Source of the DNA: an uncultured Latescibacterota bacterium
GTDB taxonomy: Bacteria; Latescibacterota; UBA2968
Length of the DNA stretch: 64,000 nt
Direction of reading: 5' to 3'
NCBI GenBank assembly: GCA_958295785.1
Contig: OY282377.1
Span: 124,001 to 188,000 of the forward strand
Every line of letters begins with the position of its first letter. The first letter of the stretch is position 1. Positions 15,594 through 33,753 of this stretch are shown here, piece by piece. The position numbers and the translations under genes are program-made. Under the pieces are notes generated by a model. That model was not told the DNA's origin and did no database searches. It saw nothing but the letters and a program-made list of their open reading frames with translations.

Positions 15594-15663
15594 ATTATTC
15601 TCCTTCCGTAGTTTCCCCCTTCGTCCCCCGGCCTCGGGATCCTCGCTCGCTGGTCGCTTCAAC

Positions 15664-16758: not shown

Positions 16759-16783
16759 AACTCAATTTTTGCCCCGCCTGCCG

Positions 16784-18424
16784 TCACGCCGCAGTTGGGT
16801 CTCTTTGCTTCTGAACGAGGAACGCCGCCGTGGCGCAGGTCAGGCCGATAACGAAATTGTAGTACCCTATGATGAGTAAATGGTGATACGACAAGCCGTA
16901 CAGGGCCATCACAATAACCCATCCGACGACCAGATCTCTGCCTAGGGACTTCGGCACGATCCAAAGCAACCGCATCAAGAAGAACAGGGATAACAAGTAT
17001 AATGCCAATGGAATAATGCCCGCTTCGCCAACCAGCATCAGGTACACATTATGGACGCCAGTCGGTCTCCCCTGGTTTCCGATAGGGGAACCCTCCATAT
17101 AGTGGAGTTGATACAAGCCGTGACCTGCGATGGGCGATTCCAGGACCTTGTTGAAGCCCATCCCCCACAAGAGCATTCGTCTCGATAGAGCTCTCGCACT
17201 GCCGATGTTGGAATCGGCTTTGCCTCGGAAAGCCTCCACGGTATTGCCCGGGTCCTTCAGTAGCTGGCCCAGCGCGCCGGCATCCGTCGCGGCCGTTGCG
17301 GATGCCGCCATGATCGGGCCTATGGCCTTCGTCTGAACCCGGTGCGTCATGCCGTTCTTCTCGTAGGACACCCAGGCGCGCAAGAACTTGCCCCCGTCTT
17401 CGTCCGCCGGGGTGTAGTTGGGTGAGAGCGCGTCTTCGATGTTGGTCCAAGTGGCGTCGTCGGGCATATTGGCATCGCCGGGCCGGGCGTCGGCCCGCTG
17501 CCATCGCCAGGGATTGACCGGGTTGTCGTCAGCCCGGTGGGACTTGTCGTAAACCAGGAAAACGGTGACAGTGTCTCCCACCCGCTTTGCTTCGTGCGGG
17601 TCAACAATCCAGGCCTCGTCGGTATACCCTACCGGCGCCCCCGGAATGAGCCAAACCAGGACGCCGGCCATGCACAGAACAGTCAGGCCGGTATGCATGA
17701 GGTCTTGTCTTAGGCGGCGGACGTTCAGCAGCAGGAACAAAGTCAGCATCCCGCCCAGAACAATAACCGCCGTATAGGAAACCGATGCGAGTCCCGCGGC
17801 GCATCCCAGGACCAGGGCCACACACCCGAAGGGACGTTGTCGTCCGTTGGATTGAAACGCCAACGCCAGCACTGCCGTCAGGCAAGCGATGAAGCCCGCG
17901 TCGTTGGGGTCGGTAAAAGTGCCGGTCAGGCGATAGGGATGCTGGTACTCCGGCAACACGCCAATATCGCGTAGCAACGGCGAGGCCAGAACGACGGCGC
18001 AACTTGCCACCAGAATCACGAGCGTCCACTTCAACAACGTCTCGGCCCCGATTCGCTCCAGTAGCCAGCGGCCGCCCAGTATGGCAGCCAGGGTGACGAG
18101 GAAGAAGAAGGCTTGGCGCAGCACGTCTTTGGTCAACAATTCGGCGTCGGTGGCGAGCGAAGTGCCGGAGGAAATGAAGAGGTAGGACGCTATCGAGGCG
18201 AGGAGGAACCATCCGGGCGTTCCAAGAGACTTCCACCAGCGGAGGCGCACGAAACCCAGCAGGAGCAGGCAACACAGGAGCATCGCCCCAAGGACGAGCG
18301 GCTCTATCACACCGCCTTGCAGCTTTATGTGGACCAGGACGGCCAGCACCCAGAAGGAAAAGGAGATGCAGGCGACCGATGCGAACTCGAGTCGCCTCCA
18401 GAGTAACGGAATAAGCCGCAGCAT
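16784..18424 (-). CDS. O-antigen ligase/polymerase (WaaL/Wzy-like) with embedded Ig-like module
   Basis: 546 residues, about eleven membrane segments. The Wzy_C-type large periplasmic loop holds the family motifs RMLLWGMGFNKVLESPIAGHG (416-436) and GVHNVYLMLVGEAG (456-469). Such proteins link or join polyprenyl-bound glycans at the periplasmic face. Odd feature: residues about 303-370 of the loop form an Ig-like module (NPWRWQRAD, ATWTNIEDA, YTPADEDGGKFLRAWVSY, VQTKAIGP) like the one fused to the GT-C enzymes nearby. Second oddity: the first 16-17 residues (MLRLIPLLWRRLEFASV) match those GT-C proteins, not ligases. SD AAAGGTGA is four bases before ATG 18424. Confidence 0.85.
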   Translation of the reverse strand: MLRLIPLLWRRLEFASVACISFSFWVLAVLVHIKLQGGVIEPLVLGAMLLCCLLLLGFVRLRWWKSLGTPGWFLLASIASYLFISSGTSLATDAELLTKDVLRQAFFFLVTLAAILGGRWLLERIGAETLLKWTLVILVASCAVVLASPLLRDIGVLPEYQHPYRLTGTFTDPNDAGFIACLTAVLALAFQSNGRQRPFGCVALVLGCAAGLASVSYTAVIVLGGMLTLFLLLNVRRLRQDLMHTGLTVLCMAGVLVWLIPGAPVGYTDEAWIVDPHEAKRVGDTVTVFLVYDKSHRADDNPVNPWRWQRADARPGDANMPDDATWTNIEDALSPNYTPADEDGGKFLRAWVSYEKNGMTHRVQTKAIGPIMAASATAATDAGALGQLLKDPGNTVEAFRGKADSNIGSARALSRRMLLWGMGFNKVLESPIAGHGLYQLHYMEGSPIGNQGRPTGVHNVYLMLVGEAGIIPLALYLLSLFFLMRLLWIVPKSLGRDLVVGWVIVMALYGLSYHHLLIIGYYNFVIGLTCATAAFLVQKQRDPTAA

Positions 18425-18435
18425 ACGTTCACCTT

Positions 18436-18610
18436 TTAGTCATGGTCGTTTGGCCAGCCGCCCGTGCGGGGGGTTGTTTCCGGCACAGGTTGCACAGTTC
18501 GGCGGCCACGCGGTCGTACCAGTCCGCGCTCCGAAAGTGGCCCCCTCGCCGTCTTGCTCCCTCGCAGAGTTGCCGGTACAATATCCCCGGAGTGGTGGGG
18601 AAGGTCGTCC
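18436..18610 (-). repeat. Duplicated 3' end of the GT4 gene, remnant A
   Basis: Near-identical to the last ~150 bases of the GT4 gene at 24875-25020 plus the short gap and Shine-Dalgarno that follow it. It lies between the GT-C gene at 18626 and the ligase gene at 18424. Its reading frame is broken. Homology to the GT4 gene stops at the codons for LYRQL, where other DNA begins. Confidence 0.85.
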
Positions 18611-18625
18611 GTGTTGGCCGTCAAA

Positions 18626-20905
18626 CTACCGCCGTTTCTCCTCGAACCAGTGCTCCGTTTCCCAAAGGAGGTTCCCATAGCGGTCAACCTGTCCGGTTCG
18701 GATGCCGACGATGTCTTGGTCGGGAATATAGCGCTCAGCGACGCAGGTTCCGTTGTTCTTCCAGAAATTTTCGTGCCATTCAAAATCCAGCGTATCGCGT
18801 TCCGGCGTTCCACTTTCGGAATCCAACAAATAGACGATCAACGGGAACTGCGTACCGGCTTCGTCTTCCCATCTGCAGTTCCGGTTCCTATAGATCAGCC
18901 TGTTTCCGTGGAGGTACAGATCGTACTTGGAACGAATGCCGCGGTCCGCTTCGGAAGCGCCCCGCCGCGCCCCTCCGTCTTCGCTTCCAAGCGGCGCCAA
19001 TACTTTCAGGATGTCCGGCTGTACGGGTTCGGACGGCTTGGTCATCGCTTTCACTCGGTTGCCGAGGTGGTCTGCGTAGTACACCGAAGCGCGCAGGCGA
19101 TGCCCGACATCGGTAACCGTGGGGGTGTACCCGTAGTCAGACCGTTGAACGGGGAGGCTCGTCCAGCTATCGGCATCGTCGTCTTTCTCCCACCGCCACG
19201 GTTCCCCGGGCAGCCGCTGGCCGTGGGACATGTTGAGAAAGGCGACGAACAACTTGCCCTCCATCGGAGCATCGGAACTGTGGAACATGGCGGGCGGGAA
19301 CTCCCGGAAGTCGCGTTCGCGCAGGCGATACAGCGTGCCGTCCGCCAGTTCCGCCACCAGTTCCAGCAAAGGCTCCCGAGACAAGGCGATTCGGAGGGCG
19401 TCGTCCTGTTGCCAAGAGCATGGGTTCCAAGAGGTCCAGTCACTGGAATAGAGGGCATGGAAATAGAGGACATGCACCTCTCCTCTGCCAAGTGCGTGCG
19501 ACAATGCGGGCCTCACACGATCCGGTTTACACAGTAGTCTGTAATGGCGTGCCGGACTGTCGGCGTGCAAGCGCGGGATGATCGGGTTATTGCCCAGGAT
19601 CGTGCCTGTCAAAGCCGCCTCCCGAATGTACTGCACGCTCTCTGAATTCCTCCACCGCTGTTCGCCATACCCTTGTCGCACACCGGCATTATAGAGCAGT
19701 ATGTCGCGGGCATGCAGCGCAACCAGTCCGGCCGCCTGCAGGGACAGTGCCAACATCAGGATGGCTGCAAGTGTCTTCCCCCGATCGCTTGAACTCCCCC
19801 CACTGGCGCGGTAACGATTCCGCGCATACCGGAGGGCGCCGTCCATCAGTAGCAGCGCCGCGAACAGGAGCGGAACATACACGGGAATGAGGAATCTCCC
19901 CAGGTCGGATTCAACATACCAGGTGGCTCCCAGCATCACCGCGGCGACGAACAGAGTCAGGTACGCGAGCGCAAAACCGCCGAATACGCGCAACGGGCCC
20001 CAAGCAACATCCGAAGCAACGGGAGCGCCGCTTTTCCGGCGCGAGAGGCGGTGGAACGCATGGCAGGCGACCATCACGAGTGCCAACAGGACCGGGGCGG
20101 TCAACCCGCCGATCCACGAGCCCGCAACCGCAAGTCGTAAAAACTCGTACACGATGAAGCCAAATGAGTAGGGATCCCAGCCTCTTTCGCCGGTCGTTGA
20201 TCCGGCAAGCAGAAAGTTCCGCAGCATCCACAGACCCACCGGCACCGCGGCAATCAGCGTATAGACGACGATGCGCTTCATCTTCTCCCGCGGCGCAACC
20301 CGCGCGGCAAGCAACAACGGGACCACCGCCAGGATCAGGGAAACGCCCATGTAGCGGGTCAGGCAGGCCAGCGCGCTGAACGCCGCCGCCCGGATCAGGG
20401 ATGCGCGTCCGCCGCCGCCCAGATGGGCGTCGATCTGCGTCAGCGAGAGCGTTACGAACAGAACGAAAACCGACTCGGTCAAGGCCTGGGACGCGATCTC
20501 GGCGAGCGGAAGGGCAAGTGCGGTCGAGAGGCAGCCCCACAGCCACAGGAGACGGGAGTGCAGATGGCGCCGCAGCCACCAACCCGCGACCAGAACGGTC
20601 AGCCCGAAGATGACGGCGTTGAGCGGCCCGGCGACCGCGTAGGGGTCGAACCCGAACAGTCCCCCGCTGGCGAGCATCGCCGGATACAGCGGCGGCCAGT
20701 ACACCCAAGGGCCACCACCCGTGCCAACAAGACCATCACCCGCCAGGAGGCTGCGGGCCGCTGTGATGTAGCTGGCGGCATCCGTACCCACGCTTGGTCC
20801 GTAGCTGGCCAGCCGCAGGAATACGAGACCTGCGCCCAGCGCGGCGATGCAGGTGACCGATGCGAAATCGAGTCTCCTCCAGAGCAACGGAATAAGTTGC
20901 GGCAT
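18626..20905 (-). CDS. GT-C membrane glycosyltransferase with Ig-like module and Cys-pair C-terminal domain
   Basis: 759 residues, the intact representative of the set. About ten membrane segments lie in 1-395 with the acidic loop motif D42 in SVGTDAASYITAARSL and WPPLYPAMLA (70-79). A periplasmic tail follows: LVAELADGTLYRL (516-528), an Ig-like module about 560-630 (PGEPWRWEKDD, WTSLPV, YTPTVTDVGHRLRASVYYAD), and a terminal domain 660-755 with YLHGNRLIY, Cys677 and Cys721, TLDFEW and RTGQV. A polyprenyl-phosphate sugar donor is expected for the family. The protein at 22454-24859 is a close paralogue, so this is a duplication product. SD AAAGGT upstream of ATG 20905. Confidence 0.85.
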   Translation of the reverse strand: MPQLIPLLWRRLDFASVTCIAALGAGLVFLRLASYGPSVGTDAASYITAARSLLAGDGLVGTGGGPWVYWPPLYPAMLASGGLFGFDPYAVAGPLNAVIFGLTVLVAGWWLRRHLHSRLLWLWGCLSTALALPLAEIASQALTESVFVLFVTLSLTQIDAHLGGGGRASLIRAAAFSALACLTRYMGVSLILAVVPLLLAARVAPREKMKRIVVYTLIAAVPVGLWMLRNFLLAGSTTGERGWDPYSFGFIVYEFLRLAVAGSWIGGLTAPVLLALVMVACHAFHRLSRRKSGAPVASDVAWGPLRVFGGFALAYLTLFVAAVMLGATWYVESDLGRFLIPVYVPLLFAALLLMDGALRYARNRYRASGGSSSDRGKTLAAILMLALSLQAAGLVALHARDILLYNAGVRQGYGEQRWRNSESVQYIREAALTGTILGNNPIIPRLHADSPARHYRLLCKPDRVRPALSHALGRGEVHVLYFHALYSSDWTSWNPCSWQQDDALRIALSREPLLELVAELADGTLYRLRERDFREFPPAMFHSSDAPMEGKLFVAFLNMSHGQRLPGEPWRWEKDDDADSWTSLPVQRSDYGYTPTVTDVGHRLRASVYYADHLGNRVKAMTKPSEPVQPDILKVLAPLGSEDGGARRGASEADRGIRSKYDLYLHGNRLIYRNRNCRWEDEAGTQFPLIVYLLDSESGTPERDTLDFEWHENFWKNNGTCVAERYIPDQDIVGIRTGQVDRYGNLLWETEHWFEEKRR

Positions 20906-20928
20906 GCGTTTACCTTTGAATCACGGTC

Positions 20929-20972
20929 GTTTGGCCAGCCGCCCGTGCGGGGTCTATTTCCGGCGCATATCC
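20929..20972 (-). repeat. Short remnant of the GT4 3' end, remnant B
   Basis: About 40 bases matching the very end of the GT4 gene (minus strand CCGCACGGGCGGCTGGCCAA) directly before the Shine-Dalgarno of the GT-C gene at 20905. It is the minimal form of the unit seen at 18436 and 22447. Confidence 0.7.
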
Positions 20973-21021
20973 GGTAGCGACAGCACTCGGGGCTCGTCTA
21001 TCAGTCAGCTAGTGCGTGACG

Positions 21022-22173
21022 TCAGGCGTAGCGGCCGACGATTTTGACGCCGTACTCATCGGCGGGCATTCCCTTGCAATAGCCGCACGTTCGTGGGAAC
21101 AGACCGTTGTGAAAATCGCCTCGTATGGCGCGTATCCGATGGTCGTTCCAGATTTCTTCCAGGCTCTTTTCGAAGACATTTCCCAAGCTGTATCTGGCGG
21201 AGCAGCAGAGGTTTACGTTGCCGTCCTGACTGATCTGAATCTGTCCGGTCCAGGGCGCCAAGCAACAGCCTCCTCCCGAGGGATCAACCCGCCGCTTCAC
21301 AAGCGGCAATATGTTGAGCTCGATGGGAAGCAGCCGCGACGCCCGGTGCGCCGCCTGTTTTAGGCTCACGCCATGAGCAGCGGCAAATTCCATATTGCCG
21401 GCCTCAATGGTGATGCCCAGTTCCTGCGCTCGTTCCCGAATACGCGGCAACTGGTCGAGGAATGTCTGGCCGACCTCGCGGTTGAACTGCTCGTGATACC
21501 GGTAAACGAAATCCTCAGCTTCACGATATGCCCCCTTGAGAATCTTCGGGTTCGGGTCCAGCTTCATGAACCGCACCTTGGAAACTCCCGTGCGATGGGC
21601 AAGCAGTAGAAAGTCATCGATCTCGTTTACGGTTTCCTTCACGACGATATAGCTGAACCAGAACTCGTTGTCCGGGGAACCGCTCAGGGTGCTTTTTTCG
21701 GTCAGGTAGGAGATATTGTCCATGACCCGTTGTAGGTCCTGCCCCATGATCTTCCGGTAGGTCGCGGACGTTCCGGCGTGGATGGAGAACATGATGTGGA
21801 GCCTGGTCGCCAGGAGGCGGTCGACCAACTCGGGTTTGAGAAAGAAACCGGTGGAGTTCATATGCAGATAACAGTCGTTCGCGCGCGTCGCCTCAATGAA
21901 GTAATCGATGTTGCGGCTGATCAGGGGTTCACCATACAGGTGAATGCCCAGTATTTCCAGATATTGGAAATACGGGCTTACTCTGTTGAGCAAGTCTTGA
22001 CTGACGTCGACCGACTTTCTGCCGTGTTCGTCAGGCACTTTGCACATGATGCAGGTATACGGACACCCGCGCGTCGCCTCGAGGTACATTACGGACGGAA
22101 AGGACTTCACGGTAACCGCCCGAGAGGAGAGGTCTTCCGCCAGGAGATGATCGTTTTGCCGGGATACTGACAT
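21022..22173 (-). CDS. Radical SAM/SPASM enzyme
   Basis: 383 residues from ATG 22173, which has AAGGAG nine bases upstream; the frame is open further but without such a site. Cluster motif C37-x3-C41-x2-C44 (CPYTCIMC), LYGEPLIS for the GEP motif, and a C-terminal SPASM domain with GGGCCLAPW, NLCCSARY, LGNVFEKSLEEIWN and CGYCKG. It is only distantly like the radical SAM enzyme at 15664, so two different modifications are likely. It sits between the two paralogous GT-C genes, in the operon. Substrate unknown; a sugar, lipid carrier or peptide are all possible. Confidence 0.85.
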   Translation of the reverse strand: MSVSRQNDHLLAEDLSSRAVTVKSFPSVMYLEATRGCPYTCIMCKVPDEHGRKSVDVSQDLLNRVSPYFQYLEILGIHLYGEPLISRNIDYFIEATRANDCYLHMNSTGFFLKPELVDRLLATRLHIMFSIHAGTSATYRKIMGQDLQRVMDNISYLTEKSTLSGSPDNEFWFSYIVVKETVNEIDDFLLLAHRTGVSKVRFMKLDPNPKILKGAYREAEDFVYRYHEQFNREVGQTFLDQLPRIRERAQELGITIEAGNMEFAAAHGVSLKQAAHRASRLLPIELNILPLVKRRVDPSGGGCCLAPWTGQIQISQDGNVNLCCSARYSLGNVFEKSLEEIWNDHRIRAIRGDFHNGLFPRTCGYCKGMPADEYGVKIVGRYA

Positions 22174-22446
22174 ACTGGTATGCTCCTTCTGGTCGGCGGC
22201 CGGCGTGGCCCGGACAGACAACGTTACCCGCCTCGGTACGGATATTCTACTGCCATACGTCTCCGAGGTCAACGGATAGTCCGTATTCGTTAGTGCTATC
22301 CCGCCCCTGTTCTTCAACCCTGCCCCGCCCGGGAAACCCGGTTCATCCCGCCGCCCGACGGCGCGGATTGTCCTCATCATGTCCACACGAGAGGCGGTTG
22401 TCAAGGTCGAAAGGGGGCGGATGTATTAGCGACAACATACGATGAT

Positions 22447-22610
22447 TTATCCTTTAGTCATGGCCGTTTGGCCGGCCGCCCGTGCGGGATCTGTTTCCGG
22501 CACAGGTTGCACAGTTCGGCGGCCACGCGGTCGTACCAGTCCGCGCTCCGAAAGTGGGCCCCTCGCCATCTTGCTCCCTCGCAGAGCTACCGGTACAATA
22601 GCCCCGGAGT
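22447..22610 (-). repeat. Duplicated 3' end of the GT4 gene, remnant C
   Basis: Same unit as at 18436, matching the end of the GT4 gene at 24875-25020. Here it lies between the paralogous GT-C gene and the radical SAM gene. Because the GT-C stop codon is lost, the GT-C frame runs through this remnant to 22454. Confidence 0.85.
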
Positions 22611-24859
22611 GATGGGGAAGGTCGTCCGTGTTGGCCGTCAAACCACCGACGTTTCTCCTTGAACCAGTGCTCCGCTTCCCAAAGGAGGTTCCCATCGCGG
22701 TCAACCTGTCCGGTTTGGATGCCGAAGATGTCCTTGTTGGGAAGCTGGCGCTCGGTGACGCAGGTGCCGTTGTTCTTCCAAGAATCCTTGCGCCATTCAA
22801 AATCCAGCGTATCGCGTTCGCGCTTTCCACTTTCGGAATCCAACGAATAGACGAGCAACGGGAACCGCGTACCGTATTCGTCTTCCCAGCTGCAACTCTG
22901 GTTTTCATAGATCAGCCTGTTTCCGCGGAGATACACAGCGTACTTGGAACGAATGCCGCGGTCCGCTTCGGAAGCGCCCGCCACGCCCCTGCCGTCTTCG
23001 CTTCTGGGCGGTGCCAAGAGCACTTTCGGGATGGCCGGCTGTACGGGTTCGGACAGCTTGGTAGTCGCTCTGACTCGGTTGCCGCCCTGGTCTGCGTAGT
23101 ACACCGAAGCGCGCAGGCGATGCCCGACATTGGCAGCCGTGGGGGTGTACACGTAGGTGGGCCGTTGAACGGGGAGGCTCGTCTAGCCATCGGAATCGCC
23201 GCCTTTCTCCCACCGCCACGGTTCCCCGGGCAGCCGCCGGCCGTGGGACTGGTTGAAAAAGGCGGCGAACGACTCGTCCACCACCGGAGCATCAGAACTG
23301 CGGAACATGGCGGGCCGGGACTCCAGGGATTCGCGTTCGCGCAGGCGATACAGCGTGCCGTCCGCCAGTTCCGCCACCAACTCCAGCAAGGGCGACCGAG
23401 ACAAGGCCCTTCCGAGGTCGTCGTGCTGCTGCCGAGAGCATTCTCCCCGCCAGTCACTGAAATAGAGGACATGCACCTCTCCGCTGCCAAGTGCGACCGA
23501 CAAGGCGGACCGCAGACGATCCGGTTCACACGGTAGTGCGTAATGGCGTACCGGACTGTCGGCGTACAAACTCGTGACGGTCAGGGCCTTGCTCACGATC
23601 GCGCCTGTCAGAGCCGCCTCCCGAAGGTACTGCACGCTCTCTGAATGCCTCCACCGCGGTGCGAGATACCCTTGTCGCACACCGGCATTCCAGAGCCGTA
23701 TCTCGCGGTCATGCAGCACAACCAGCCAAGCCACCTGCAGAGACAGCACCGACATCAGGACGGCGGCAAGTGTCTTCCGCACATACCGCAGGGTACCGTC
23801 CAGCAGTAGCAATGCCGTGAGCAAGAACGGAACATACACCGGAGCGAGGAATCGCCACTGCAATCCATCCCAGGTGCCTCCCGACATCATCGCGGCGACG
23901 AGCAGCGTCAGGTAGGCGAGCGCAAAACCGCCGCATACGCGCAACGGACCCCAGGCAACATCCGAAGCGACAGGAGCATCTCTTTTCCGTTGCGAGAGGC
24001 GATGGAACGCATGGCAGGCGGCCATCACGAGGGCCAACAGGACCGGGGCGGTTAACCCGACGAGCCACCAGTCATTGACGGCGAGGCGCACCGCCTCGGC
24101 CACGATGAAGCCAAATGAGTAGAAACCCATGTCTCTTGCGCCGGTCGGTGATCCGACAAGCAGATAGTTCCGTAGCATCCACAGACCCACCGGCGCCGCG
24201 GCAATCAGCGTATAGACGGCGATGCGCTTCATCTTCTCTCGCGGCGCAACCCGTGCGGCAAGCAGCAGCAGCGGGACCACTGCCAGGATCACGGCAGCGC
24301 CCATGTAGCGGGTCAGGCAGGCCAGCGCGCTGAACATCGCCGCCCGGATCAGGGAGGCGCGTTTGCCGCCGCCCAGGTGGGCGTCGATCTGCGTCAGTGC
24401 GAGCGTTACGAACAGAATGAAAGCCGACTCGCTCATGGCCTCGGACGCGATCTCGGCGAGCGGCAGGGCCAGCGCGATCGAGACGCAGCCCCACAGCCAC
24501 AGGAAGCGGGAGTGCAGATGGCACCGTAGCCACCAACCCGCGACCAGAACGGTCAGCCCGAAGATGACGGCGTTGAGCGGCCCGGCGACGGCGGACGGGT
24601 CGAGCCCGAACAATCCCCCGCCAGCGAGCATCGCCGGATACAGCGGCGGCCAAAACACCAAAGGGTTACTACTCAAGCCGACAAGGCCATCACCCGCCAA
24701 GAGATTGCGGACCACCGTGATGTAGTTGACGGCATCCCACCCCATGCTCGGTCGGTAGCTGGCCACCCGCAGGAGCACGAGACCCGCGCCCAGCGCGGCG
24801 ATGCAGGTGACCAATGCGAACTCGAGTCGCCTCCAGAGTAACGGAATAAGTCGCAACAT
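22454..24859 (-). pseudogene. GT-C membrane glycosyltransferase with Ig-like module, amber codon inside
   Basis: Close paralogue of the protein at 18626 (same N-terminus MLRLIPLLWRRLEFA, same acidic loop GWDAVNYITVVRNL, same tail motifs). The frame is open from 24859 to 23183, where TAG stands in place of the Trp of WTSLPV in the Ig-like module. It then resumes in frame with TYVYTPTAANVGHRLRASV and the Cys-pair domain (Cys in NQSCSWED and NGTCVTE). At the position of the sister gene's TAG stop (22643-22645) this copy has TGG, so reading continues into the GT4 remnant. As it stands the translated part keeps the whole membrane domain but loses the Ig-like and terminal domains. Confidence 0.8.
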
Positions 24860-24874
24860 ACGTTCACCTTTCAG

Positions 24875-25999
24875 TCATGGCCATTTGACCAGCCGCCCGT
24901 GCGGGATCTGTTTCCGGCACAGGTTGCACAGTTCGGCGGCCACGCGGTCGTACCAGTCGGCGCTCCGAAAGTGGGCCCCTCGCCGTCTTGCTCCCTCGCA
25001 GAGTTGCCGGTACAGATCAGGCTCGTCCAGTAGCCGCCTGATCGCGGCCTCGACCTCTGCGGCGGAACGGGGTTCCACCAGCAACCCGCTATCTTCGTGC
25101 TCGACCAGTTCGGCAACGCCGCCCCACCTGGCGGCGACGACGGGCAGGCCGCATTGGAAGGCTTCGAGGATGGCACCGGGGTAGCCCTCGCTCCGGTAGT
25201 AGCTGGGATACACCAGCAGGTCGTGTTCACTGAGGACTCGCGGTATTTCCGCCGGGTCCAGGACACCGCCGTAGGTCGCCCTGGGATGGTCCTCGAACAG
25301 GGAGAAGTCCGTGTCGGACATGCCGGGGCCGAAGACGTTGAGATGACAATTCTCCGGCAGATGGCGGCAGGCGGCGAGGGCTTCGGTCAGCCCCTTGTCC
25401 ATGTCCAAACGGGCGACGAAAATCAGCTTTTCCACCCGGTCGCGCCCGGCCCGGGCGGGCACCTCTATGTCCCTCGTATTCGGGAACCACTTAAAGTTGT
25501 CCCGGTTGTCGAAGTTGCGGTGCAGATACTGCGTCTCCACGTACACCAGCGAAGAGCGCATATAGGTACGGTCGGTCAGCCAGCGGGCGAAGGCGCCATA
25601 TCCCAAGTAATCCAACATCATATCGCCCCCGGTGAGACGCAGTGCCAGGGGCCTGCGCGTCATCTTGCAGACGACCCACATGAACGATGCCAGGCTCAGG
25701 GCCGAATAGGGCGCGATGATGAGGAACACGCCGTCGGAGTGCCATATCTTCCTTGCGGCTCCCCAAGCCACTCTCAGGAACCTCGCCAGACGATGGGCCC
25801 TGATTTTCCAGGTGGGCAGATTGGTCACGGCCCCGGACGTGTCGATGACGTCCACCTCGAAGCCGCGTGCCTCCAATTCCCGAACCTGCTCGTCGGCCAT
25901 CACCTTGTTGCCGCCGACCACGTTGGTATCGGACGCCCCGGTCTTCTGTATCGGAGCGATGAGCAGGATGCTGGGTGCTCGGCTCTCTTTCCCGGTCAA
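24875..25999 (-). CDS. GT4-family glycosyltransferase
   Basis: About 374 residues. N-terminal GT-B half begins PSILLIAPIQKTGASDTNVVGG. The C-terminal donor-binding half has EKLIFVARLDMDKG, then EGYPGAILEAFQCGLPVV, the E-x7-E region of GT4 enzymes. A cytoplasmic enzyme that adds a sugar from a nucleotide donor. TTG at 25999 is preferred as start because GGAGG lies seven bases upstream and TTGA overlaps the stop of the flippase gene. Its last ~45 codons are duplicated at 18436, 20929 and 22447, which marks this gene as the left border of the amplified unit. Confidence 0.85.
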   Translation of the reverse strand: MTGKESRAPSILLIAPIQKTGASDTNVVGGNKVMADEQVRELEARGFEVDVIDTSGAVTNLPTWKIRAHRLARFLRVAWGAARKIWHSDGVFLIIAPYSALSLASFMWVVCKMTRRPLALRLTGGDMMLDYLGYGAFARWLTDRTYMRSSLVYVETQYLHRNFDNRDNFKWFPNTRDIEVPARAGRDRVEKLIFVARLDMDKGLTEALAACRHLPENCHLNVFGPGMSDTDFSLFEDHPRATYGGVLDPAEIPRVLSEHDLLVYPSYYRSEGYPGAILEAFQCGLPVVAARWGGVAELVEHEDSGLLVEPRSAAEVEAAIRRLLDEPDLYRQLCEGARRRGAHFRSADWYDRVAAELCNLCRKQIPHGRLVKWP

Positions 26000-27459
26000 C
26001 GTGATTCCTCCTCTTTCTCGAGTTGAGCATGGGCGGCGGATATCCCCCTGATCCCGCCGGACAGCGCGGACCGGCCCGCGGCCCACAAGAAACTGGCGTC
26101 GCGACGCCGCGGCAACCAGACCGCGGGCAGACCCGTTCGAGTCGTTCTGTGGAAAGCTATGGCGAGGAACAACCATCCGCACACCATGCCGATGGTCATG
26201 CCCCACGCCGCGGCCTCGACGCCGAGTCTCGGGTAGAGCAGGAGAAGCGCGCTGAGATTGGCGCACAGTCCCAGGAAGACCGCCCACGAGCAGATATGCG
26301 GGCGGTTGGCGCCCTTGAAGTGTGTCATGAAGATTCCCGAGATGGCGTAGGCGAGCATCCCCGGCGCGATGATCCACAAGAGCGGAACCGCCGGCAGGAA
26401 GGCTTCCGAAAGCAGGAGGCGCACTAGGGGCGCACTGAACGCGAGCAGGACGAGCATGGGAATCGCGGTGCCCACGCAGACCAGGCGCAGGCCGAGCGCG
26501 ACCATCTCGACGCGCTCGGCACCCGCGACACGGGGGAACAGCGCGTTGCCCACCGCGTTGGAGACCAGCATGAACCCAAGCATGAGCGCGCTCGCGGCTG
26601 CGAACAGCCCAATTTCGCCCTGGCTGGCGATCAATCCCAGGATGACGACTCCGAGGTGAGGTTCGATGGCGTTGCCAAGCCGCGCGGCATGGTATTTCAA
26701 GCCGTAGCCGAGAACGCGGCTGATATTCGAGCGGCCCGGCATCTCGAAGACCAGCCCGCAATGCCGACGCAGGTACAGCAGGCAGGCGGCTATCATGACG
26801 CCATGCCCAGCGGCAAAGGCGATGATGGCGCCGTCCACCCCAAGCCCCAGGCTCCGGACGAGGACCAGGAGCGTGAGCGCGTTCGCCGCGACGCGGAGCA
26901 TTGAGAAGACTGCCAAGTGCCGGAAGCGCCGGAGCGCGACGAGTTGGTGGTCGAGCGCGATGGAGATGACCGTGAGGGGCCCCAACGCAAGCGACAGCAG
27001 GAACGTGTGGGTCTCCGCCTTTTCAAAGAAGGCGAGGCCGCTGTAGATCAGCGGGACCGCCAGCGCGGCGGCCAGCCCTCCGCCGCCGAAGCAAATAATC
27101 AGGGATGAGGACACGCCTTGCGAGACGCTCATCTGCCGCGCCGCCACGAAATACTGCGCGCCCTGTTGCGCGCCAGGCGTGAGGAGCAGACCGAGCAGAG
27201 TCCCGAACGCGATGCAGACCGCGTAGGCGCCCCTTCCTTCGGGAAGCAGCATGTAGGCGAGCAACCCCTGTATCAGCAGGGTCAGACCCGCCATGCCGGC
27301 CAGGGTCGCAAACGTTACGGACACGTCCTGCCCGCCGGTTGTGGCCGGGACTTCCAGCGCATCTGCCGTTGCCGGCTTCGGTTGGAGCCTGACGCGGATG
27401 GGTGAACCGGACGCTGGACTTCGAGCTATGAGGTGTTTGCCAATGGGTTCAGAGTTCAT
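25996..27459 (-). CDS. Wzx-type polysaccharide flippase (MATE/MOP superfamily)
   Basis: 487 residues with about 12-14 hydrophobic segments, starting VSVTFATLAGMAGLTLLIQG near residue 47 after a hydrophilic N-terminal stretch. The pattern fits the polysaccharide exporter branch that moves polyprenyl-linked repeat units across the inner membrane. The start ATG 27459 overlaps the stop of the GT2 gene (ATGA) and its own stop overlaps the GT4 start (TTGA), so the three are translationally coupled. The 46-residue soluble N-terminus is longer than usual. Confidence 0.85.
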   Translation of the reverse strand: MNSEPIGKHLIARSPASGSPIRVRLQPKPATADALEVPATTGGQDVSVTFATLAGMAGLTLLIQGLLAYMLLPEGRGAYAVCIAFGTLLGLLLTPGAQQGAQYFVAARQMSVSQGVSSSLIICFGGGGLAAALAVPLIYSGLAFFEKAETHTFLLSLALGPLTVISIALDHQLVALRRFRHLAVFSMLRVAANALTLLVLVRSLGLGVDGAIIAFAAGHGVMIAACLLYLRRHCGLVFEMPGRSNISRVLGYGLKYHAARLGNAIEPHLGVVILGLIASQGEIGLFAAASALMLGFMLVSNAVGNALFPRVAGAERVEMVALGLRLVCVGTAIPMLVLLAFSAPLVRLLLSEAFLPAVPLLWIIAPGMLAYAISGIFMTHFKGANRPHICSWAVFLGLCANLSALLLLYPRLGVEAAAWGMTIGMVCGWLFLAIAFHRTTRTGLPAVWLPRRRDASFLWAAGRSALSGGIRGISAAHAQLEKEEESR

Positions 27460-28496
27460 TGATCTCTTTTTGATTTCGAGAATGTCCTGAATATCGGGAA
27501 GGGGGACGGAATGAAGAAGCCTAGCCCCCAACTCAGGTGCATGGTCGCCAGCACCAGCGGAAGGCGGATGGCCGCCGCGTCCCGTCGCCGAAAGCCCACG
27601 ACCGCCGCCCCTGCCGCGAGGGTCAGCACGTAAGCAAGCATCAGCGCGGCCAACGGCCAGGGGAATCCGGCCAGGGCCAGCGCCGCCCCGGCCACCAGGC
27701 CCAAGGCCAACCCGGGAGCGGCGAGGTGGCGAGGGCGAACCGAGCCCGGATGCCTTATGACAACCGCCGACTTCCCTCGACCGTAGTTGAAATACTGCCG
27801 CGCCAGCGTCCAGAATGTGCCGCGGGGCCGGTAATTCACCACCAGTTTGGGATCGAACCATACGGTCTTTCCCCGCTCGCGCAACCGGTAGTTGAACTCA
27901 TAGTCCTCGTTCGTGGCCACGTTGGCATATCCTCCGCCTATCTCCTCCAGCGTCTCACGAGAGAACACGCCCAGATAGGCGGTGTCGGAGACTCCCTCCT
28001 TCCCGCCCAGCCGATGGCGAGCGTCGCCTACTCCCAATGGGGTGGTCATGGCCATCGCCACCGTTCGTTCGAAGGGGGTGGTCCCCACCGATAGTTGTCG
28101 CCCGCCGACGTTTGCCGCCCCTGTTCGCTCCAGGGTTTCCACGGCGCGGCTCACGTAACCGGGCGGAAGGGTCGCATGGGCGTCGCACCGCACCATGATG
28201 TCTCCGGTGGCCGCCCGAAACGCTGCGTTGGCTCCGGGCACGAGGATTCTTTTTGGGTTGGGAATCAACTTCACCGACGGGTGAGACCGCCGGATAAGTT
28301 CGGACATGGCCGGGGTTTCGGAGCCGTCGGCGACGATGACCTCTATCGGCCCCTCATAGTCCTGGGCGAATATCGAATCAAGGGTGGCAATGATGGTCGC
28401 TTCGGCATTGCGCGCCGGAATGATTACCGATACGCGCGGGGGGGGGGGCACAGAATATCCCTCGGGATTCGAGGTTTGCTGATTTTCGATGTTCAT
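27456..28496 (-). CDS. GT2-family glycosyltransferase with C-terminal membrane segments and a C11 tract
   Basis: 346 residues. The nucleotide-binding start is PRVSVIIPARNAEATI, followed by VIVADGS, the D-x-H pair in VRCDAHATLP and the catalytic ATNEDYEFNYRLRERG. Three to four hydrophobic segments close the protein, as in membrane-attached GT2 enzymes. Codons near 15-18 (Pro run) are written with 11 consecutive Cs (plus-strand G11, 28438-28448), so a one-base slip would abolish the enzyme just after its start. Starts at ATG 28496, 15 bases after the oxidoreductase stop. Confidence 0.85.
   Translation of the reverse strand: MNIENQQTSNPEGYSVPPPPRVSVIIPARNAEATIIATLDSIFAQDYEGPIEVIVADGSETPAMSELIRRSHPSVKLIPNPKRILVPGANAAFRAATGDIMVRCDAHATLPPGYVSRAVETLERTGAANVGGRQLSVGTTPFERTVAMAMTTPLGVGDARHRLGGKEGVSDTAYLGVFSRETLEEIGGGYANVATNEDYEFNYRLRERGKTVWFDPKLVVNYRPRGTFWTLARQYFNYGRGKSAVVIRHPGSVRPRHLAAPGLALGLVAGAALALAGFPWPLAALMLAYVLTLAAGAAVVGFRRRDAAAIRLPLVLATMHLSWGLGFFIPSPFPIFRTFSKSKRDQ
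28438..28448 (-). repeat. Homopolymer C11 in the GT2 coding start
   Basis: Eleven Cs on the coding strand at the fifteenth to eighteenth codons. The current length keeps the frame open. Long G/C tracts early in glycosyltransferase genes are classic slipped-strand switches. Confidence 0.8.
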
Positions 28497-28510
28497 GGCA
28501 CCGCATCCTG

Positions 28511-29602
28511 CTACGGCCGCTCGCGTTGTTCGCGCCGCTGACGGCGTGGGGAGTCCATCCGCTCCGCCTGGGATTGCAACTGTTCGCTGATGACGCTCAT
28601 GACCCGCACCGTCTCGAGGCCGTCCTCGGATGTGATGGCTGGGGGCAGACCGTTGACGCTTCGCTTGAAGAACTCGCTGATGGTCCTGTCGTGGATGTTC
28701 CTGAATCGGCCTGCGAGATAGTCGAAGCCATTGGCGAAGGCGCCTGAGGCGATCTGGGCGGCCTCGCCGACAGCAGAAAGGCCGATTCCCCAAGGGGACT
28801 GGTTGACCCTATCGTAGTTGACGAGCACCTTGCTCTGCATATCGATCTTTATTATGCCTTCGGTGCCCCACAATTCCAATAGAAAGGCCGAATGTTTGCT
28901 GGTGTACGTCAGCACAATGCTGCTGGCGGCATGGTCGCCCACAAGCTCCAATCGATAGTCCTCGAAGGGCGACCAGGGGTACTCCGGCAACATTTTTCGG
29001 CCCCGGACGCGGATGTCGCGGATAGGACCGATGAATGCCTGGGAGAGGTACACCACATGGGGCCCTGTCTCTCCTATTGACCCGCCGGGCAGCCGGTTGG
29101 CGAAGTGGCCGGGGTCCGTCGTCCACAGAGTGACCGGCGTGGAGTAGAAAATACGCATCCCGGTGAGGTGCCCGATGTCGCCGCGCTCGATGCGCTGGCG
29201 GGCCTCGATGACCCGCGGATGGAACAACTCGGTATGAGCCACGCCGACCCGGCCTTTGGACCCCCGCTCGGCCTCGATGATCCTTTCACACTCCTCCACC
29301 GTCGTAGCCAAAGGCTTCTCAATCAGTGCATTGGAGTCCGCTTTCAGCGCCGCCACTGCGATATCGGCATGGGCACTGGGCGGCGTGCATACGTCAACAA
29401 AGTCGGGACGCTCCATGCCCAGCATTTGCTCGACGTCATCATAGGCCGCCGGAACTCCGAATTGGCGGCTCACCGCTTCGGCCCGGCTGCGGTCGAGATC
29501 GCAGACGGCGACGACTCTCACGTCGCGGCGCAACCGGAGCCAGGCCGGCAGGTGCTTTTTGGTTGATATGAACCCGGCTCCTATGATGGCTACTGTGTAC
29601 AT
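28511..29602 (-). CDS. Gfo/Idh/MocA-family oxidoreductase
   Basis: 363 residues. N-terminal NAD(P)-binding motif VAIIGAGFISTKKHLPAW, DVCTPPSAHADI, and the family's EKPLATT Lys-Pro motif; the C-terminal half is the alpha/beta dimerisation and substrate domain. Enzymes of this family oxidise or epimerise sugars, here likely a nucleotide sugar for the polysaccharide. It is the first gene of the GC-rich minus-strand operon. ATG 29602 follows AGAGA. The preceding 270 bases hold the divergent intergenic region. Confidence 0.85.
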   Translation of the reverse strand: MYTVAIIGAGFISTKKHLPAWLRLRRDVRVVAVCDLDRSRAEAVSRQFGVPAAYDDVEQMLGMERPDFVDVCTPPSAHADIAVAALKADSNALIEKPLATTVEECERIIEAERGSKGRVGVAHTELFHPRVIEARQRIERGDIGHLTGMRIFYSTPVTLWTTDPGHFANRLPGGSIGETGPHVVYLSQAFIGPIRDIRVRGRKMLPEYPWSPFEDYRLELVGDHAASSIVLTYTSKHSAFLLELWGTEGIIKIDMQSKVLVNYDRVNQSPWGIGLSAVGEAAQIASGAFANGFDYLAGRFRNIHDRTISEFFKRSVNGLPPAITSEDGLETVRVMSVISEQLQSQAERMDSPRRQRREQRERP

Positions 29603-29708
29603 CCGGCATTCTCTTTGCAGTCCCCACCATCGTCCCAAGCGAGCAGAGGCGCGGTATTGGGCAGGTACAGGCGATGCTTGGGTTCTGCCTTCTGGTCAGC
29701 CCCAAGCG

Positions 29709-29763
29709 GGATGGCTTTTCTCGATGACTTTTTGTGATGGCATTTTTGCGATGGTTTATCTGA
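29709..29763. promoter_or_regulatory. Four tandem GATG(N)2TTTT repeats between divergent genes
   Basis: GATG occurs at 29710, 29723, 29736 and 29750, each followed by a T-rich stretch (GATGGCTTTT, GATGACTTTT, GATGGCATTT, GATGGTTTAT), spacing 13, 13 and 14 bases. The site lies about 110 bases upstream of the minus-strand operon start and 110 upstream of the MBL gene. It may be an operator; this is inference from position. Nothing else recognisable lies in 29603-29872. Confidence 0.35.
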
Positions 29764-29872
29764 ATACTGCGTAACGCCAATTATTCAATGAATAACCCAT
29801 CCAAATTTGGCTTGTCTGATAAAAAATAAAAGACTAAACTCCACTGAGCAAATTTACACTTGGGAGGTCGCG

Positions 29873-30751
29873 ATGGACAACATGCATCTCAGATGGTGGG
29901 GTTGTGGTGCTTTTGAAATTCTCTTGGGAGATGTCAACATCGCCATTGATCCATATCTTTTTGACGATAATCTAAAAAATGCCGAACCCATCTACGACTA
30001 CATCTTTATCACGCACGAACATTTTGACCACTGTCACCCCAAAACCCTAAAAAAACTCTGCCGGGGGAATCGCTTCAAAAAACTCTTTGTCAATGTCTGT
30101 TGCATCACCCCAAACGAACCCGTTGACGAAAATTATGGCGACGCAGCTTTTTCCCGCGACCTGCCCATCAGCAAGCATATATCAAAAGAAAAAATTCAAG
30201 TCCTCTATCCCAAATATCTGACCGATAATACGCGTACTTTTCCAGGCCCCTTTGCGTGTGACCTAGGCACTGTGCGGGTAGAAGCCATTGAAAGCGGTGA
30301 AAATGCGCGGCCCGATTTGCCCACCTGTGGATACATCATCACACACCCTCAAAAAAACGTCTCATTCTACCACACCGGCGACCTTCACGAGACCTACCCT
30401 GCACTCGGCAATCTCAAAGGGCGTGTGGATTATCTCATCCACATGAAAACAGGGCTGAAGCAATGGCCTGTTTTCTCGCGCCTTCTCGATCTCGTACAAC
30501 CCCGTTTTTTGATTCCAACCCATTATCGCACCGACCGCAAAACCGATCCCATTCCCGAAGGGCATTGGCCTCCCGATGTTACAGATGCCAATGCCTTTAT
30601 CGAAAGCATCCGCGAACACGCCGGCAACCGAACCCAAATTTTGCCCTTCACGGCCGGCATCCAGTACGAGATTGAATTGCCATCGAAAAAAGTTGTGTGG
30701 GATTGGGATTGGCACAACACATGGACCGTACCCCCGTGGCGGGAGGGATAG
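29873..30751 (+). CDS. Metallo-beta-lactamase-fold hydrolase (UlaG-like)
   Basis: 292 residues. Start ATG 29873 is chosen for GGGAGG seven bases upstream. The metal motif HEHFDHCH and the downstream HTGDLHE and IPTHYRT His residues match the MBL fold. The opening MHLRWWGCGAFEILLGD resembles the UlaG/lactonase-like branch that acts on sugar lactones or phosphodiesters. Substrate not known. It is the only plus-strand gene facing away from the polysaccharide operon and looks like normal chromosome content (lower GC). Its stop is three bases from the convergent dehydrogenase stop. Confidence 0.85.
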   Translation: MDNMHLRWWGCGAFEILLGDVNIAIDPYLFDDNLKNAEPIYDYIFITHEHFDHCHPKTLKKLCRGNRFKKLFVNVCCITPNEPVDENYGDAAFSRDLPISKHISKEKIQVLYPKYLTDNTRTFPGPFACDLGTVRVEAIESGENARPDLPTCGYIITHPQKNVSFYHTGDLHETYPALGNLKGRVDYLIHMKTGLKQWPVFSRLLDLVQPRFLIPTHYRTDRKTDPIPEGHWPPDVTDANAFIESIREHAGNRTQILPFTAGIQYEIELPSKKVVWDWDWHNTWTVPPWREG

Positions 30752-30754
30752 CCT

Positions 30755-31846
30755 TCAAACATCAAACCGAATGACCTGCCGCGCGACTTCGCCCTTGAGC
30801 AGGGCATTGAACGCATCGTTGATATCGTCTAAGGCAATGGTGTGCGAAATCATCTCATCCAACTTGAGATGCCCCCTCAAATACATATCCACGTACCGAG
30901 GCATATCCACGCGAAAGCGATTCGATCCCATGCTCGATCCCTGAATTTTGCGCTCGCCCAACAAGTCGTGTCCGGTCAGCTCAATTTTAACGCCCTCGGG
31001 AATCATGCCAATCACCGTGGCCGTGCCGCCTCTTTCGAGCATCTCAAAACACTGCTCTGCTGTTCGCTTCAACCCAACCGCTTCAAACGAATACGCCGCG
31101 CCCTCCCCGCCTGTCAGATCCATAATTTGCTCGACTGGATCCCCGTCATTTGCATTGACGAGATCGGTCGCGCCCAACTCTTTGGCCAATTGCAATTTGG
31201 AAGCAATCGCATCCACGGCAATGATGCGCCCCGCGCCTCCAATGCGCGCGCCTTGAACCGCGCTCAACCCAATGCCCCCGCACCCGACAACCACCACCGT
31301 GCTGCCCGGCTCGACTTTCGCCGTATTGAGCGCGGCCCCCACTCCGGTTGTCACGCCGCACCCGATCAGCGCGGCCTTATCCAGCGGCATATCGTCGCGC
31401 ACTTTGCAGACCGCGTTCTCGTGTACCAACAACTGTTCAGCGTAAGAGGCGAGGTTTGCAAACTGAAACAATTCCCGACCATCTTGGGACAAGCGCGGAC
31501 TGTCCGTCTCTTTGCGCTGTGTCGATTCTCGGTCCTCGCACAGATTTGGACGTCCGGTGGTGCAATACCGGCAATGCCCGCAAAAAACCGACAAACACGT
31601 AATCACATGGTCGCCGGGTTTTGTGTATGTCACGTCTGCGCCAACGGCTTCCACAATCCCCGCGGATTCATGGCCCATCACCGCGGGCATCGGACAGGTG
31701 TGAAGCCCTTGCTGAAAGTGAACATCGCTGTGACAAACCCCCGCCGCGACAGTGCGAACCAAGACCTCGCGTCCGATGGGATCGGCGATTTCGACGTCTT
31801 CCACACGGATCGGCTGATGGGCTTCGCGCAAGACAGCAGCTTTCAT
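30755..31846 (-). CDS. Zinc-dependent alcohol dehydrogenase (class III-like MDR)
   Basis: 363 residues. Catalytic zinc ligands C38 (GVCHSD) and H59-E60 (GHE). A structural zinc loop has C89, C92, C95 and C103 (CGHCRYC...C). Rossmann motif VVVVGCGGIGLSAVQGA. This is the full Adh class III/formaldehyde dehydrogenase-like layout, so oxidation of alcohols or thiol adducts with NAD is expected. AGGAGG seven bases before ATG 31846 fixes the start. Convergent with the MBL-fold gene; no operon partner. Confidence 0.9.
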   Translation of the reverse strand: MKAAVLREAHQPIRVEDVEIADPIGREVLVRTVAAGVCHSDVHFQQGLHTCPMPAVMGHESAGIVEAVGADVTYTKPGDHVITCLSVFCGHCRYCTTGRPNLCEDRESTQRKETDSPRLSQDGRELFQFANLASYAEQLLVHENAVCKVRDDMPLDKAALIGCGVTTGVGAALNTAKVEPGSTVVVVGCGGIGLSAVQGARIGGAGRIIAVDAIASKLQLAKELGATDLVNANDGDPVEQIMDLTGGEGAAYSFEAVGLKRTAEQCFEMLERGGTATVIGMIPEGVKIELTGHDLLGERKIQGSSMGSNRFRVDMPRYVDMYLRGHLKLDEMISHTIALDDINDAFNALLKGEVARQVIRFDV

Positions 31847-32241
31847 GGTGTGCCTCCTGTTGTGAATTTGTTTGCACAACATGCCAAATTTCTCCATCCT
31901 GTTGGTCAAACTAATTATAGTGTCAACCGCCCAAATACCAAAGCATTTTTACATCCACGCAACAATTAACTTGACATTGCGCCCATAGCAAGCATAAATA
32001 GCGGTCAGCAGTCAGCGAAACAAGCGGTAAGCCCATACATCGCTTTGGGCAGCGTGGCGGGGAACGCACGGACTGCGCCACTACAATTCATCTGGATTTA
32101 TCTGCGTCAGGATACTCGCTTCTTGTATCTTCGGGCGGGCACGGGGGCTACGTTCCTGAATGACACCCCGGGTCTCGCGTTTGTACCCCTTCGTGGATCA
32201 CTCCTCACTTCTCACTCCTCACCAGTACTGGAGGAATCACC
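31847..32241. other. Intergenic region with repeat remnants
   Basis: No gene seen. It should hold promoters for both divergent neighbours. At 32132-32152 is a degenerate copy of the GTAGCCCCCGTGCCCGCCC repeat (reverse orientation). Runs such as ATTTATCTGCGTCAGGAT resemble the repeats at 33640. Confidence 0.6.
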
Positions 32242-33192
32242 ATGTTAAAAGCCGGATTTATCGGCGCGGGGAACCGCAGTCAGGGCGCGCATTATCCGAG
32301 TGTCCATCGCTTGGAAGGCGAGGTCGAAATGCGTGCGGTTTGCGAACTCGACGAAGAACGCTTGAATCAAGTCGCCAAAAAGTACGAATTTCTGCAAACC
32401 TATACGGACCACCGCCAAATGCTCGACAAAGCCGACCTCGACATCATCTATTGCGTGATGAACGAAAAATGGCTCTTGCAAACCGCCCTTGACTGCATGA
32501 ACGCGGGGAAACACATTTTCATCGAGAAGCCCCCTGGCGCGAATCTGGAAGAAACCGAGCAGTTGCTTGAGGCGGCCGTGTCCAACAATGTCTTTGCGAT
32601 GGTCGGCTTTCAGCGCCGATACACAGCGGTCACGCGCGAAGCCACGCGCCTCGTCTCGAAAAAAGGCCCGGTCTCATCTGTAATCACCACATTCAACAAG
32701 CAGATGCTCGGCGGCGATGGCAAAGAATTTACCTCCACCTTGTGGAACGACGTCTGCCATATCGTCGATCTCACGCGCTATATGGCCGGCAGCGAACCGG
32801 TTGAAGTCACTGCCTACCAGGACAAATTTGGGGGCGAAAGCTACAACAACTACACGGCCCTCATCCGCTTTGAAAACAACGCCACCGGTGCCATCTTTGG
32901 CAATCGCGCCTCCGGCGGGCGCGTGCTCCGCTCCGAGTTGCACGGTGTAGGAATCGGGTGTTATATGAAAATTCCCCAAGAGATCGAGATTCACGAAGAC
33001 AACCAAGTGCGTACTTTGGGGGGATGGGAAATCGACGGCGTGGATGAAGAAGATGTCGCCAGTTACGAGGGCGTCTTGACCATGCACCGGCATTTTGTCG
33101 ATTGCATCAACAACAACGAAATGCCCCACAACGACCTGCGCGACGTCATCCACTCCATCCGCTTGGTGGATCAACTCGAAGCTAAGAGGTAA
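32242..33192 (+). CDS. Gfo/Idh/MocA-family oxidoreductase
   Basis: 316 residues. LKAGFIGAGNRSQGAHYPSV is the dinucleotide-binding start, EKPPGANLEE is the family Lys-Pro motif, and the C-terminal domain includes HIVDLTRYMAG. Start ATG 32242 has GGAGGAATCACC in front. Stands alone between repeat-rich spacers. Probably a sugar or inositol dehydrogenase; its substrate cannot be told. It is not a close copy of the other Gfo-type proteins in the window (28511, 48229). Confidence 0.85.
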   Translation: MLKAGFIGAGNRSQGAHYPSVHRLEGEVEMRAVCELDEERLNQVAKKYEFLQTYTDHRQMLDKADLDIIYCVMNEKWLLQTALDCMNAGKHIFIEKPPGANLEETEQLLEAAVSNNVFAMVGFQRRYTAVTREATRLVSKKGPVSSVITTFNKQMLGGDGKEFTSTLWNDVCHIVDLTRYMAGSEPVEVTAYQDKFGGESYNNYTALIRFENNATGAIFGNRASGGRVLRSELHGVGIGCYMKIPQEIEIHEDNQVRTLGGWEIDGVDEEDVASYEGVLTMHRHFVDCINNNEMPHNDLRDVIHSIRLVDQLEAKR

Positions 33193-33753
33193 GATGGATC
33201 GCGGATTAAACGGATTGCGCGGATGAAAGGCGAAAACCAACCCCACAAAAACGTAGGGGCGGTGCCTCCGTGCCCGCCCGAAAAGGCAAGATACAAGACA
33301 GGAGAGGCAAAAGGCGAAACGCAACCTCCGATGAACACGGATGAAAGGCGAGAGGTACGTGCAGAGTGCAGAGGGTTTGGGCGGACTGACAAGCAAAAAA
33401 AGAAGCTATCAGCGTTTAGCTATCAGCTTTCAGCCTTTTCCGCTCCACTACTGACCGCTAACCGCTTGGGAACCGGGACCGATGGGATTTGCAATTTTCA
33501 CCCACACCCCCATCAGAGAGATGGCGAGGATGAGATTGCACACGGAAGGGCAGGATGGATGGGGCACGCATACGGGGAGGCGAGGTGGCGGATGGGATCG
33601 CACATGGGCGGCTGAAGGGCTGGGTGGACTGACACTAATGCCTTGCTTTTTATCTGCGTTTATCTGCGTTTATCTGTGGTTGCTTTTTGAATGGTTTTTG
33701 TCCATATTTGACCTGTTTTGAAATCCGGACAACTTTTGGCCTATCGAAAAAAT
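33193..33753. other. Intergenic region, repeat-rich
   Basis: No convincing gene. Contains a GTAGGGGCGGTGCCTCCGTG-type unit at 33252-33280, GCGGATTAAACGGATTGCGC-like sequence at 33200, and three tandem copies of TTTATCTGCG/TG at about 33650-33679. The promoter for the dehydratase gene is presumably here, but no clear one is visible. Confidence 0.6.

Follow-up and report, generated by a model that had tools for sequence, protein, structure and literature searches.

The window analysed here, a stretch of 64,000 nucleotides from an uncultured Latescibacterota bacterium, is part of a single 5.66-Mb contig. Its longest homopolymer is a G11/C11 run at 28438-28448, which falls within a glycosyltransferase gene of an operon ordered oxidoreductase, GT2, flippase and GT4. 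The features of the locus are as follows:

28511-29602, minus strand: GFO/IDH/MocA oxidoreductase, first gene of the operon (GFO_IDH_MocA, 6e-31)
27456-28496, minus strand: GT2 glycosyltransferase gene, 346 aa (Pfam Glycos_transf_2, 1.9e-22, and translation)
28438-28448, minus strand: C11 tract (G11 on the plus strand) in the N-terminal proline linker of the GT2 gene (direct reading)
27490-27499 (approximate), minus strand: CCCCCTTCCC at the 3' end of the GT2 gene, where relatives carry C14-C18 (sequence reading)
25996-27459, minus strand: polysaccharide flippase (Polysacc_synt, 1.2e-11, and sequence)
24875-25996, minus strand: GT4 glycosyltransferase, the scanned part of the open reading frame 24875-26761 (Glycos_transf_1, 9.3e-25)
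24797-29715: segment common to MAGs of other phyla at 87-91% DNA identity (blastn)

The oxidoreductase gene ends 14 nt before the ATG of the GT2 gene, and the ATG of the flippase gene overlaps the GT2 stop codon in an ATGA at 27459-27456. The original prediction had placed the glycosyltransferase second in a translationally coupled operon with the flippase downstream; the gene order agrees with this, and the coupling is visible in the sequence as the start/stop overlap. The predicted family also held, with a Glycos_transf_2 score of 80.4 bits against a curated cut-off of 23.3. With the flippase and GT4 genes beside it and Wzy_C and GT-C genes nearby, the GT2 gene is of the kind in which contingency loci are sought, namely genes for surface structures or DNA modification.

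Translation of 28496 to 27456 on the minus strand gives a protein beginning MNIENQQTSNPEGYSVPPPPRVSVIIP..., in which the tract corresponds to codons 17-20 (PPPP), within the first 20 codons as had been predicted, and lies immediately N-terminal to the conserved PRVSVIIP that starts the GT2 catalytic domain. In silico the reading frame is open with C11, translation stops after 23 residues with C10 and after 39 with C12, and C14 restores the frame, so that the truncation foreseen for gain or loss of a single base was reproduced. C11 is accordingly an uninterrupted repeat whose change in length is predicted, from the frame, to alter expression. It is uncertain whether the true start codon lies at 28496 or at 28451, where an in-frame GTG preceded by GAGG (read by eye) stands immediately 5' of the tract; the tract is intragenic with either start. 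This second start, the ATG or GTG found near the same position in several relatives, and the frame that is open upstream through the linker in all seven close loci except L079 would suit a tract that tunes and does not switch, either because three-base slippage resizes the linker or because the choice between 28496 and 28451 sets expression. Known tracts, however, slip mostly by one base, which here abolishes the GT2 protein, and we consider tuning highly improbable.

The length of the tract was compared with a chance model of independent bases at 54% GC over 5.66 Mb, after 61 overlapping matches had been resolved to distinct G/C runs. The genome holds 35 runs of at least 9 bases against 63 expected, 11 of at least 10 against 17, and 4 of at least 11 (11, 12, 15 and 17) against 4.6; because of this last figure, the length of C11 is unremarkable by itself. 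Two runs of at least 15 were seen against 0.024 expected, and only these, G15 and G17, both elsewhere in the genome, are clearly longer than chance as expected of a contingency repeat. They (L072, 15; L056, 17) are better candidates for phase variation than C11, for which the weight comes from its position in a glycan gene and from accompanying tracts, not from length. The runs of at least 10 bases in this genome are:

GT2 C11: coding
L041 C10, L054 C10, L068 C12: coding, in three membrane proteins whose C-terminal domain also occurs in the window's 759-aa protein
L064 G10: coding, in a paralogue of the window's 759-aa protein
L046 C10: about 50 nt upstream of a gene for an O-antigen ligase (Wzy_C)
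L056 C17 (L056:2501-2517): just 5' of the start of a secreted Ig/fn3/GLUG repeat protein
L072 C15 (L072:2501-2515): 5' of a secreted repeat protein (read by eye, with no Pfam family)
L051: in an IS copy
L065: in a repeat element
L055: no gene class given

Eight of these 11 are inside glycan or secreted-protein genes or shortly upstream of them and five are in coding sequence, the assignment of L041 being based solely on homologues and the shared domain. The L056 and L072 runs each stand just ahead of what appears to be the signal peptide of a large secreted repeat protein. The 421-base region 5' of the L056 tract had no match in any of ten congeners, and the genome itself contains a partial second copy. 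Homologue alignments of L054, L064 and L068 stay in one frame. As a control, 12 open reading frames at 9-base runs (of 24 such runs; L045, L053 and L059 included) were scanned and yielded no glycosyltransferase, one FG-GAP repeat protein and one WD40 protein.

That four runs of at least 11 were seen where 4.6 are expected is what would be found if C11 were incidental, its CCC codons having drifted together in a fast-evolving proline linker while GT2 is always on and slipped cells are lost. The relatives of the gene provide a second point of this kind. The GT2 protein is 73-89% identical in 11 loci (L075-L085) from MAGs of Binatia, Dehalococcoidia and Pseudomonadales, and in the seven close loci the C11 site reads C7 (L075-L078 and L080), C5 (L079) or C4 (L082), surrounded by indels and substitutions; in each close relative the linker has another length and sequence but keeps its C-rich proline codons. 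Runs of C4-C7, in these seven loci of other phyla, are too short to call switches. Against an incidental run, the same operon carries long tracts elsewhere in relatives: the 3' end of the GT2 gene holds C18 in L078, C17 in L079, C14 in L083 and C15 in L084, that is, in four of the 11 closest loci; in these, the C-terminus of GT2 and the spacing to the following gene would depend on tract length. Long tracts moreover concentrate in glycan, surface and methyltransferase genes, both in this genome and in related MAGs (see below). We therefore hold the incidental run to be possible though rather doubtful, and lean towards C11 as a simple-sequence switch prone to slippage, in a surface-glycan operon gained by horizontal transfer.

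The acquisition of the operon is indicated by the pattern expected of a horizontally transferred island, in which GT2 has no counterpart in congeners, distant matches are close and the right flank is vertically inherited. GT2 was absent from all ten congeners (E 1e-30), and the right flank at 29860-33200 was present in all ten, its main matches having 79-85% DNA identity. Blastn alignments covering about 4.85 kb of 24874-29715 gave DNA identities of 87% (L082) and 91% (L078), and an alignment of 2.1 kb in L075 gave 93%. Misbinning is unlikely because most of the matching records are whole-chromosome contigs. Carriage of GT2 by a virus or phage was rejected, as no relative was present among viral contigs. 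From the mix of taxa, the source bacterium is probably a sponge symbiont.

Several observations concern the structure of the island. Mosaic blocks with 75-93% DNA identity to Chloroflexota, Binatia and Pseudomonadales MAGs comprise 24797-29715 and parts of 11638-24800, and this glycan island is missing from the congeners, as judged by GT2 alone. Repeats of 109-152 nt stand at its module borders (18362-18580, 20843-20951, 22446-22597 and 24797-25014) and are possible recombination sites. The 759-aa gene has a second copy at 22454-24859, in which a TAG in frame replaces a Trp codon and so interrupts the gene; a frameshift at a tract in this split paralogue was ruled out on reading by eye.

A tract system spanning the genus was likewise rejected. 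Runs of at least 11 were found in none of six of the ten congeners, the single-contig G008 included, and most of those in G007, G009 and G010 either belong to stretches of 28-50 or more bases or sit at contig ends. The related MAGs from other taxa gave 184 runs of at least 12 in 14 MAGs (52.5 Mb, 3.5 per Mb), and 10 actinobacterial genomes that also have a GT2 relative gave 12 (74.7 Mb). In G100 all 12 runs are on small contigs and possibly not its own.

The genes at such tracts were classified for all 40 runs of at least 12 from four Dehalococcoidia MAGs and for 40 random points, drawn with a fixed seed and in equal number per genome as the tracts; a 41st run, from G110, was fetched and excluded from the class count. 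Genes were assigned by script, save that in L270 the script's short open reading frame was replaced by an LRR gene starting 59 nt beyond the tract. The tracts and controls in the classes of interest were:

glycan genes, 13 tracts: L244, L247, L248, L252 (twice), L256, L264, L268, L269, L271, L272, L274, L281
secreted, lipo- or repeat proteins, 12 tracts: L251, L253, L257, L258, L260, L263, L265, L266, L270, L273, L277, L278
DNA methyltransferases, 5 tracts: L255, L259, L267, L280, L282
random points, among the matches listed: 4 secreted (L285, L294, L315, L319), 2 methyltransferases (L296, L309), 1 epimerase (L320)

Glycan, secreted-repeat or DNA-methyltransferase genes were thus found at 30 of 40 tracts and at 7 of 40 random points (p 4e-7), with controls counted among the matches listed, classes set by Pfam and by eye and not blind, and several tracts belonging to one gene family; the remaining 10 tracts are of another class or none. 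L253 and L273 represent a single locus sampled from two MAGs, and the control L319 falls in an fn3 gene that adjoins the fn3 gene of L258 and is probably identical with it. Control classes rest on a pooled scan (among the 25 families listed), on homology to the tract set and on reading by eye, and 10 controls were also scanned singly.

At some of these tracts the coding frame is broken. Homologue alignments change frame at the tract in two GT-C genes, L268 (C21) and L264 (C13); in L259 two parts of a type III methyltransferase lie in different frames that meet at C16, and in L267 a methyltransferase is split at G13. These four could be off-phase alleles or one-base assembly errors. The evidence is weaker for the related methylase genes L255 and L280, in which some of the alignments change frame close to the run, and alignments of L244, L248, L271 and L272 stay in one frame.

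Whether G runs of this size vary in the lineage, as such homopolymers do at contingency loci, can be judged from a high-copy IS, present at 51490-51514 and at 101 further places in the genome, whose site reads G8 or GGGGNGGG. Each copy has either an uninterrupted G run or a run broken by another base. Among the 100 of 102 copies listed, with one odd copy set aside, the uninterrupted sites comprised G6 once, G7 six times, G8 28 times and G9 three times, and all 61 interrupted sites had length 8; deviation was thus seen in 10 of 38 pure-G sites and in none of 61 interrupted ones (Fisher p 3e-5). A scripted recount of 30 fetched copies, of 96% median pairwise identity, gave 4 of 11 against 0 of 18, the odd one again apart. 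In this lineage, G runs of such size are therefore either variable in length or misread, and consensus error may mimic the variation.

Homopolymers are a weak point of long-read consensus, and assembly errors there could mimic length variants and frame breaks alike. Applied to C11 itself, this would mean that the true length differs and that GT2 is perhaps off or shorter by whole codons. The tract, however, preserves the frame exactly, and such errors would not predict the class enrichment of tracts in related MAGs; we regard an erroneous length as improbable. Passages of sponge genome notes on similar taxa, not tied to this genome, name PacBio HiFi and metaMDBG (PMC12181767, PMC12648040).

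Two further sequence elements recur among these loci. A leader ending in GAACANNNGTNC plus G5-G15 is common to several genomes (L336-L357): five genomes together contain 22 instances of GAACANNNGTNC with at least five Gs after it, one of them in G000, and the reversed-pattern control gave no occurrence. The motif resembles the Gram-positive LexA box. In 18 of the 22 occurrences the 45 bases before the motif look alike by eye, and these are joined to different frames, including GT-C types and a GSDH/cytochrome protein; sequence upstream of the motif differs in L348, L349, L353 and L357. The length of the leader run differs among homologues, for example 13, 9, 5 and 5 before one GT-C type. In L349 (G12) and L353 (G11) the tracts precede methyltransferase-like frames; these two are 88% identical over 465 nt, which rules out a near-identical duplicate and makes them weaker evidence. 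The second element is a C-terminal domain, LPDYxIxxIRTGQ, with no Pfam match, found in 18626-20905, L041, L054, L068, L260, L265, L268 and L272; it is common to GT-C-like enzymes, a GSDH/cytochrome protein and small membrane proteins, and is repeated in L268.

In combination, the switch proposed in the original prediction keeps the support of the frame effect, the gene class, the variation at IS sites, the G5-G15 range of the leader run and the tracts in related loci, and loses that of length, which is not above chance. Against it stand that length, the C4-C7 at the same site in relatives and the six of ten congeners without runs of at least 11. We favour it because of its context, namely the transferred island, the C14-C18 tracts in relatives, the gene classes at tracts, the frame breaks and the IS-site variation, and, from what the sequence offers, a working switch at C11 is probable by a modest degree. 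In a fraction of cells, replication slippage would add or remove a single base of the tract and so switch GT2 off, and the lost coupling would lower the flippase; the population would then contain GT2 on and off cells with mixed surface glycans. C11 would be one of a wider C/G contingency set in glycan, secreted-repeat-protein and DNA-methyltransferase genes of probable sponge symbionts.

A broader reading, attractive though held with some reserve, is that glycan and surface-protein modules with poly-C/G contingency tracts have spread horizontally among sponge symbionts of several phyla, C11 being one such switch. That one leader, with its run of G5-G15 placed before different genes, belongs to these modules is put forward with the same tentativeness. 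If true, many unrelated members of the community in one host would draw on a common mobile phase-variation toolkit that shuffles DNA methylation, glycans and eukaryote-like repeat proteins. Sponge symbionts are thought to escape host feeding via surface structures and repeat proteins; if these are phase variable, each symbiont population would be a mixture of surface types, which would matter for phage resistance and for recognition by the host. The idea is testable without culture, since existing long reads allow tract lengths to be counted. The mechanism is already known and the cross-phylum setting is the new part; in the titles and abstract openings of the literature searched, no report was found of phase variation in sponge symbionts or uncultured Chloroflexota, nor of the cross-phylum setting.

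Phase-variable DNA methyltransferases are known as phasevarions. The type III methyltransferase of L259, with frames meeting at C16, and the tracts of L349 (G12) and L353 (G11) before methyltransferase-like frames resemble these; unlike the window's tract, they belong to related MAGs. Likewise, the C14-C18 at the 3' end of GT2, which would change the C-terminus, resemble the repeat-driven C-terminal switching described for Helicobacter canadensis (PMC2823697), an arrangement present in the relatives L078, L079, L083 and L084 and not in the window. For the window's own tract, the comparison draws in part on general knowledge of the contingency loci of Campylobacter and Neisseria. Unlike those, C11 stands in an uncultured, probably sponge-associated lineage, on an island common to several phyla, and its switching is inferred. 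The likeness is to the poly-G/C loci described in glycan, adhesin and receptor genes of the two genera (PMC8355987, PMC5084427): an uninterrupted G/C run in or before a gene for a surface structure, where a change of one base breaks the frame.
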